Shown: positions 42,520 through 50,323 of the stretch, piece after piece
Position numbering within the stretch: position 1 is the stretch's first letter
How the letters are laid out: the number at the start of each line of letters is the position of its first letter
NCBI RefSeq assembly: GCF_002148795.1
Contig: NZ_MPOB01000004.1
Span: 372,001 to 436,000 of the forward strand
DNA from: Oceanibaculum nanhaiense
Lineage (GTDB): Bacteria > Pseudomonadota > Alphaproteobacteria > Oceanibaculales > Oceanibaculaceae
Direction: 5' to 3'
Length of the DNA stretch: 64,000 nucleotides
Program-made: the position numbers and the translations under genes
The notes under the pieces: generated by a model
Told to the model about the DNA's origin: nothing
Databases searched by the model: none
What the model saw: only the letters and a program-made list of their open reading frames with translations

Positions 42520-43053
42520 ATGTCAGGCTATTGTGACAGCGCGCCGGGGCATCCGGTCCATGCCAGCTACCATGATACGGAATACGGTTTCCCGGTCACT
42601 GATGACAAGGTGCTGTTCGAACGGCTGGCGCTGGAGATCATGCAGGCCGGCCTGTCCTGGGAAATCACGCTGAAGAAGCGTCCGGCCCTGTTTACCGCCT
42701 TCGAAGGTTTCGATCCGGCAATCGTCGCCCGCTACGGCGCCGACGACCGCGCCCGGCTGCTGGCCGATGCCGGCATCATCCGCAACCGGCTGAAGATCGA
42801 CGCCATCATCACCAATGCTGGCATCATCTGCGGCATGCGGGACAGCCATGGCAGTTTCGTCGGCTGGCTGGACGCCAATCATCCGCTGGACAAGGCGGCG
42901 TGGGTAAAGCTGTTCAAGAAAACCTTCCGCTTCACCGGCGGCGAGATTGTCGGCGAGTTCCTGATGAGCACCGGCTATCTGCCTGGTGCGCACCGTGACG
43001 ACTGTCCGGTGCAGTCGAAAATCCTGACCGCGAATCCGCCCTGGTGCCGATAA
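42520..43053 (+). CDS. tag: DNA-3-methyladenine glycosylase I
   Basis: 177-aa base-excision repair enzyme removing 3-methyladenine. Zinc ligands as in the E. coli enzyme: Cys5, His18 (YHDTEYG), His158 and Cys162 (GAHRDDCP). Catalytic-pocket Glu39 in LALEIMQAGLSWEITLKKR. ATG 42520, 15 bases after the DUF1467 stop. Confidence 0.94.
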   Translation: MSGYCDSAPGHPVHASYHDTEYGFPVTDDKVLFERLALEIMQAGLSWEITLKKRPALFTAFEGFDPAIVARYGADDRARLLADAGIIRNRLKIDAIITNAGIICGMRDSHGSFVGWLDANHPLDKAAWVKLFKKTFRFTGGEIVGEFLMSTGYLPGAHRDDCPVQSKILTANPPWCR

Positions 43054-43150
43054 GGGCGTGAGAAGCGGTTTCATGTGCACATTATTTGCGCAAACCGCGT
43101 CTATATTCTCTGCAAATGCCAAAACTGCCAGCAAAATAGGCAAAAAATAA

Positions 43151-43176
43151 TGGCAAGAGCAGCTTTGCTCTTGCCA
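43151..43176. other. Perfect inverted repeat overlapping the sRNA -35 box
   Basis: TGGCAAGAGC (43151-43160) and GCTCTTGCCA (43167-43176), 6-base loop. A-rich DNA lies before it, so on the minus strand it would resemble a terminator; on the plus strand its right arm supplies the TTGCCA box of the next promoter, so it could also be an operator. Confidence 0.6.
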
Positions 43177-43199
43177 TAGTGCAATGCACAATTCATATT
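43171..43199 (+). promoter_or_regulatory. Sigma-70 type promoter of the orphan sRNA candidate
   Basis: TTGCCA (43171-43176), 17-base spacer, CATATT (43194-43199). Expected start 43206-43207, exactly at the first hairpin. Confidence 0.55.
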
Positions 43200-43205
43200 T
43201 TTATC

Positions 43206-43303
43206 AGGTCGTTTGAGGTTGGTATGACCTCTCGACCGACGCCTGGTGGCGATTCCTCCCTAAACTTGGGCCGTGCCGCTTCACAGCGGCGCGGTCTTTT
43301 TTT
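43206..43303 (+). ncRNA. Candidate small regulatory RNA, about 98 nt
   Basis: An intrinsic terminator without an upstream gene. Predicted order: 5' hairpin 43207-43237 (GGTCG/CGACC plus GAGGT/ACCTC), mini-hairpin 43240-43251 (CGCC/GGCG), a single-stranded stretch with TCCTCCC (43254-43260, complementary to Shine-Dalgarno sequences), then an 11-bp terminator stem 43269-43296 and seven T. No open frame of note. This build matches trans-acting, Hfq-type alphaproteobacterial sRNAs such as AbcR, but I cannot assign a family. Confidence 0.6.
43269..43303 (+). terminator. Orphan intrinsic terminator
   Basis: 11-bp GC-rich stem (43269-43279 with 43286-43296, including two G-T pairs), loop TTCACA, T run 43297-43303. 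Confidence 0.93.
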
Positions 43304-43389
43304 GTGCCGCTCAGGCTACAAAATAGATTTACCAAAGTCATCATCTTTCTGCATGTTAAATGCAAATGCCACAGAGTGGGATTTCATCC

Positions 43390-43839
43390 ATGCCGTTTGC
43401 CGCCCGAAAGCTTGCCGTTGGTACCGCTCTAGCGCTGCTGGTTACGTCGCCGGCGTCGGCGGTGGAGATCATCATCGGCGGGGATGCCTGTTCCGGCGCG
43501 GTTGCGTACCGTCCTGAAGCCGGTGTGGCCTATCAGCCGGGGGTTGATGCCTATGGCCGCAAGGTGGCCCCGGCGGACCTGTCCGGCGGTTCTGCCATCC
43601 AGATACCCGACACCATTGCCATCGACATTACGGTGGAGCTGCAGAAGCGCTTTGGCCTGCCGTCAAATTCCACGCTGTTCAAGCCGGAGGCGCGCATCGG
43701 TACGCTGGAAGTGGATCGGAACGGCGCCATGCGGTTCAACGGCGAGCCGGTGACCAGGGACGAGGCGCTGGCGGTGCAGGCGGCCTGCCGGGAGGCGCTG
43801 GGCCTGCCGCCCTTGCCGCTGCCGAAACCAGCCAAATAG
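43390..43839 (+). CDS. Secreted/periplasmic protein of unknown function
   Basis: 149 aa with a clear signal peptide: basic start, hydrophobic core at about 8-20, cleavage near SPASA-VEI (24/25). The mature part has two Cys (about 34 and 137), a Gly/Tyr-rich region and a Pro-rich end. No domain recognised. ATG 43390 is chosen because it places the signal peptide correctly; an in-frame ATG at 43360 adds ten polar residues. Follows the sRNA unit. Convergent with the dehydrogenase gene across a shared terminator. Confidence 0.7.
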   Translation: MPFAARKLAVGTALALLVTSPASAVEIIIGGDACSGAVAYRPEAGVAYQPGVDAYGRKVAPADLSGGSAIQIPDTIAIDITVELQKRFGLPSNSTLFKPEARIGTLEVDRNGAMRFNGEPVTRDEALAVQAACREALGLPPLPLPKPAK

Positions 43840-50171: not shown

Positions 50172-50323
50172 CGACGTTCTCAGGGCGGGGTGAAACTCCC
50201 CACCGGCGGTAAGCAGGTTCGTCCTGCAAAGCCCGCGAGCGCCCGGCCGCATGGCCGGGGTCAGCAGATCCGGTGAGATGCCGGAGCCGACGGTTAAAGT
50301 CCGGATGGGAGAGAGCGGGTATC
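50172..50323 (+). ncRNA. FMN riboswitch (RFN element)
   Basis: All hallmark blocks in order: GTTCTCAGGGCGGGGTGAAA, CCCCACCGGCGGTAA, AGCCCGCGAGCGCC, a variable hairpin around GGCCGCATGGCC, GGTCAGCAGATCCGGTG, CCGGAGCCGACGGTTAAAGTCCGGATGG and GAGAGAGC. FMN binding represses the ribE-ribB-ribH genes downstream. No clear T-run terminator follows, so translational control is likelier. Confidence 0.96.

Follow-up and report, generated by a model that had tools for sequence, protein, structure and literature searches.

Architecture of the locus

Downstream of the DNA-repair gene tag in Oceanibaculum nanhaiense, and ahead of a gene for a conserved hypothetical protein (43390-43839, without a Pfam match), lies a compact unit (43171-43303) that a preliminary description, made from the letters alone, had read as the gene of a base-pairing RNA with its own promoter and terminator. 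All coordinates refer to the window, the whole stretch of 64,000 nucleotides that we analysed (contig NZ_MPOB01000004.1, positions 372,001 to 436,000), which also holds an FMN riboswitch (50172-50320; RF00050, 113.5 bits) and five tRNA genes.

The sigma-70-like promoter, TTGCCA-N17-CATATT on the plus strand (43171-43199), was found exactly where it had been placed, with its -35 box at 43171-43176 and, after a 17-nt spacer, its -10 box at 43194-43199. It is unchanged in four Oceanibaculum genomes, and inspection of the wider sub-group of related loci revealed a TTGC-type -35 box with a -10-like box at a distance of about 17 nt. Within the spacer lies TGCAATGCA (43180-43188), a predicted operator that matches the PhaR/AniA core YGCRNYGCR exactly. 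The -35 box is provided by the right arm of a perfect 12-bp dyad, ATGGCAAGAGCA-GCTT-TGCTCTTGCCAT (43150-43177), which is unique in the genome and, with a T-rich run behind it on the minus strand, resembles a terminator of that strand.

The predicted sRNA is ~99 nt long (43205-43303, plus strand), its start placed by the -10 box and its end by the U-run. It opens with the previously described two-part 5' hairpin (43207-43237), which we confirmed and which varies in sequence while conserving its pairing. There follow a nearly invariant short hairpin, CGCC-UGGU-GGCG (43240-43251), and an unpaired anti-Shine-Dalgarno seed, AUUCCUCCCUAAACU (43252-43266), nearly identical to the alpha-r8 10-mer UUUCCUCCCU. 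The TCCTCCC that had been credited with the ability to pair with ribosome binding sites (43254-43260) is present and unpaired in the fold. The RNA ends in an intrinsic terminator (43268-43303) with the expected seven U (T run 43297-43303) and a stem (43268-43297) that we count as 13 pairs rather than 11. The preliminary description had not included the short hairpin, the operator-like dyad at 43180-43188 or the 12-bp dyad at 43150-43177. The folding energy of the RNA, -47.1 kcal/mol (z -3.64), was equalled by none of 200 shuffles.

Conservation, covariation and gene neighbourhood

We found the unit conserved in ~52 alphaproteobacterial genomes. A search of the genome collection for the 21-mer GTGGCGATTCCTCCCTAAACT gave 50 stretches with an exact match, to which the window genome and a further genome (G003) add two, and the carriers include Azospirillum, Niveispirillum, Nitrospirillum, Oceanibaculum and other alphaproteobacteria. 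Of 51 loci, 32 have the unit at most 1 kb downstream of tag; in several of the remaining loci the gene next upstream is DUF1467 or mce. One carrier contig (L129) is titled as an Anaerolineae bacterium, probably a binning error, given that it bears the alphaproteobacterial unit.

The structure itself is also conserved. Across 42 distinct sequences, 23 of the 28 pairs have undergone compensatory changes on both sides, and 91.5% of the cells of the covariation alignment are paired, with none of 500 shuffles matching any of five measures; as a control, shifting the partner 1-3 columns lowered the pairing to about half. This alignment takes in one canonical alpha-r8 copy and two antisense matches and was fitted to the structure model. 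Because of that fitting, we also folded 30 sub-group sequences without any alignment; z averaged -4.2 over the whole RNA and -2.9 when the 5' hairpin was taken by itself, with every value negative. Two pairs of the 5' hairpin have already changed on both sides within the four genus genomes, whose alignment was not fitted to the structure. Three MAFFT alignments (A1, A2 and A4), in which the 5' hairpin was out of register, were excluded from the pair counts. The compensatory changes in relatives whose absence had been named as grounds for refuting the proposal are thus clearly present. The promoter taken alone is at chance level (one found against 0.5 expected from shuffles of the 1-kb region), but the fold and its conservation are not, and it is the conservation that settles the matter: judged by its sequence, the unit is real and functional-looking.

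On the far side of the unit the neighbourhood is less constant. Where Oceanibaculum has the hypothetical protein gene, several lineages instead have a xanthine/uracil permease gene that converges on the sRNA (L096:5242-7047, L108:3397-4866, L121:3065-4594, L137:6456-7745, L138:7142-7987 and L099:3454-5271). A weak terminator-like hairpin lies between the permease gene and the sRNA in L096 and L108, and none was found there in L137. Upstream of the sRNA, many relatives outside Azospirillum have kept the dyad, with different inner arm bases and with the T-rich run on the minus strand, while at this position Azospirillum lacks it. Changed inner bases followed by a T-rich run are more in keeping with a terminator on the minus strand than with a fixed protein site; a sigma-54 site, which we considered for the same dyad, was rejected because the GG-GC spacing is wrong. 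In lineages with the convergent permease gene, the dyad might serve both strands, as the -35 box of the sRNA and as the minus-strand terminator of a permease mRNA that would run antisense through the entire sRNA and end at its promoter. We think this arrangement unlikely; if it were true, the permease mRNA would carry in its 3' UTR a built-in antagonist of the sRNA.

A probable divergent member of the alpha-r8 family

At the gathering thresholds of Rfam, no family matched the unit (43171-43303). In a relaxed search the best match was RF00519 (suhB/MmgR), which aligned over its full model length with 39.8 bits (E 1e-6), 1.2 bits below its gathering cut-off of 41 bits; other sRNA families stayed far under their cut-offs, and none of the matches in 42900-43500 was to AbcR (alpha-r15), even with E values up to 10 admitted. 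RF00519 corresponds to the alpha-r8 family, known as MmgR in Sinorhizobium meliloti and as SisA-D in Caulobacter (PMC12559287). The Rfam covariance search that had been proposed, with AbcR and the alpha-r families in mind, thus turned up an alpha-r8 relative, albeit just under the cut-off, and nothing of the AbcR type. The unit had been called an orphan of unknown family; it appears instead to be an MmgR/SisA relative at a syntenic locus.

In alpha-r8 RNAs an unpaired 10-mer, UUUCCUCCCU, lies 3' of a weak hairpin. The corresponding 10-mer here, AUUCCUCCCU, agrees with it at 9 of 10 bases, having A rather than U at the first; it is unpaired and located 3' of the CGCC/GGCG hairpin. Stem-loops with a Rho-independent terminator at the end, a feature of alpha-r8 RNAs, are present as well. 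Several orthologs reach or exceed the cut-off, with exactly 41.0 bits for the nearest (L009), 41.5 for L121, 44.3 for L015 and 45.1 for L094. In the reciprocal direction, a covariance model (R1) trained on nothing but the window copy's orthologs in the four genus genomes recovered the canonical alpha-r8 copies of these genomes with 39-40 bits, and 119 of the 289 genomes of the class contained a match.

A score under the RF00519 cut-off, a 5' hairpin and a locus of its own and the deviating first base of the 10-mer are also what would be expected of a separate, undescribed sRNA family that had converged on the alpha-r8 anti-Shine-Dalgarno core. We consider such convergence improbable, because the match takes in the whole model, including the short hairpin, the CUCCCUAAACUU core and the terminator, because sub-group members score on both sides of the cut-off and because R1 recovers the canonical copies. 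For these same reasons we have filed the unit as a divergent member of alpha-r8, with the shortfall of 1.2 bits and the A at the start of the 10-mer as caveats. With tag before it, the next gene after it on the same strand and a terminator at its end, the unit would also fit an attenuator or a tag 3' UTR, that is, a cis-regulatory leader or 3' element in place of a free-standing sRNA. This is very unlikely, given that the unit has its own conserved promoter, that conservation begins at the promoter region and not at the tail of tag, and that the unit stays constant while the next gene changes by lineage from a hypothetical protein to a convergent permease. An open frame of 112 amino acids with a GTG start (43179-43517) almost certainly does not encode a small protein, as indels break its frame among close relatives in the genus alignment while the RNA pairing is kept.

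The unit thus very probably encodes a small regulatory RNA of the MmgR/SisA family, known from related bacteria, whose members silence mRNAs by covering the ribosome-binding sites, and we hold with considerable confidence that its product is an sRNA of ~99 nt, a divergent alpha-r8 (RF00519) member that would act as an Hfq-assisted anti-Shine-Dalgarno repressor of mRNAs for carbon uptake and of polyhydroxybutyrate-related ones. A trans-acting base-pairing RNA with an anti-Shine-Dalgarno seed, as first proposed, is accordingly the best reading of the fold and the compensatory changes. What is new is an additional member of a known sRNA family, not an orphan.

The same genome contains a canonical alpha-r8 copy (G000:C2:97455-97541, minus strand), which scores 54.5 bits to RF00519 and lies between a GNAT gene and an N-formylglutamate amidohydrolase (FGase) gene. 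FGase linkage is usual for the family where copies are single and not for extra siblings, SisB-D being found elsewhere as well (PMC12559287); the tag-linked window copy does not have it. The two copies share the seed UUCCUCCCUAAACUUGGGCCGUG, the terminator and a PhaR-like core at the promoter, and differ in their 5' hairpins, flanking genes and RF00519 scores. In the canonical promoter, TGCAGTGCG lies just after the -10 box and TGCAATGCA further upstream. Two weaker RF00519-like matches, C3:45272 and C5:226644, were rejected as siblings on account of their low R1 scores (19.3 and 14.6 bits) and the absence of the CCUCCCUAAACU core. The first of these (C3:45272-45345, minus strand; L066:1501-1574) is an sRNA-like unit, sub-threshold to RF00519, with two copies of CCUCCUGAAACU before its terminator, and is perhaps a different anti-Shine-Dalgarno sRNA.

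Among 18 sampled sub-group loci, 15 had no RF00519 match over the cut-off or had one only elsewhere, and two had one at this site; a third locus had its match over the cut-off at another copy, 1.2 kb from this one. The sub-group is therefore largely invisible to standard annotation, and in the open-access papers that we searched we found no report of a tag-linked alpha-r8 sub-group. Both sub-groups occur together in Niveispirillum, where an RF00519 copy over the cut-off (L096:3799-3873) lies ~1.2 kb upstream of the tag-linked copy. Another locus (L022, from G036:C7) has three tandem RF00519 copies within ~600 bases, all over the cut-off.

Predicted control by PhaR and predicted targets

The PhaR/AniA operator core was defined in S. 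meliloti, where PhaR binds and represses mmgR at a site close to the transcription start (PMC12542648). The TGCAATGCA of the window promoter is an exact core, although the 21-nt consensus is not matched at its two outermost positions, and two genus mates have TGCATTGCA at the same site, with an altered centre and the dyad kept. All four genus genomes carry phaR. Sites of the form TGCANTGCA number 33 genome-wide, compared to 7 for a reversed-pattern control; two such sites flank the -35 box of the phasin gene and one precedes phaA, an arrangement that resembles the S. meliloti layout. As only a minority of the Azospirillaceae copies have the core, control by PhaR would be lineage-specific. Going by these motifs, the Oceanibaculum sRNA seems to be wired to the carbon-storage regulator PhaR. 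When polyhydroxybutyrate (PHB) is low, PhaR would repress the sRNA promoter; when carbon is in surplus, PHB granules would sequester PhaR and release the promoter, and the sRNA would accumulate.

The genome contains an hfq gene, and Hfq would be expected to bind the 3' U-run of the sRNA, whose exposed AUUCCUCCCUAAACU would pair with Shine-Dalgarno regions of the GGGAGGA type and block translation. The predicted target mRNAs are rich in those of transporter solute-binding proteins and include phaB, and together with Hfq the sRNA may in this way lower both uptake and storage when carbon is in surplus. Genome-wide, 31 start sites are preceded by AGGGAGGA, a perfect complement of one part of the seed. 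Solute-binding proteins account for seven of the 27 scanned proteins of this set (TctC, SBP_bac_8, two DctP, two Peripla_BP_6 and NMT1_3), compared to 1 of 37 for two control Shine-Dalgarno words (Fisher p ~0.008, for small sets and a hand-picked seed word). A phaB-like reductase gene beside phaA is also among the AGGGAGGA start sites. For the phasin mRNA as a direct target we found only a modest duplex (-14.1 kcal/mol). Because anti-Shine-Dalgarno complementarity is generic, the target list is weak, and we offer the predicted set as a lead. A further target, a solute-binding protein gene (L213:1516-1767) apparently frame-shifted near its start through an assembly error or as a pseudogene, was left out of the count.

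A close parallel to the window copy is MmgR of S. meliloti, with which it shares a three-hairpin fold, an exposed CUCCCU core, a terminator, a PhaR/AniA promoter site (predicted here), a genomic Hfq and a PHB context. Unlike MmgR, the window copy has a tag-linked locus, a longer two-part 5' hairpin and an A in place of U at base 1 of the 10-mer, and we recognised no NtrC or sigma-54 site for it. AbcR1 and AbcR2 are sRNAs that regulate transporter mRNAs, a way of working similar to the one predicted for the window copy, although the window RNA matches no AbcR-type family in Rfam, even at E 10. One paper on AbcR sRNAs describes such regulation (PMC5461406). As with SisA-D of Caulobacter crescentus (PMC12559287), Oceanibaculum has several siblings per genome that share an anti-Shine-Dalgarno seed and have separate promoters and loci; whereas the SisA-D genes share no promoter motif, both Oceanibaculum siblings carry the PhaR-like core.

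With these findings the alpha-r8 family, which is conserved widely but has been little studied, gains a syntenic sub-group found in Azospirillaceae, Oceanibaculum and their relatives. Because Rfam mostly misses this sub-group, a second alpha-r8 sibling is probably present, though unannotated, in many genomes. In Oceanibaculum, the predicted PhaR core on both siblings, taken together with the seed-matched start sites of transporter genes and phaB, suggests a link from carbon storage to nutrient uptake that is open to test.
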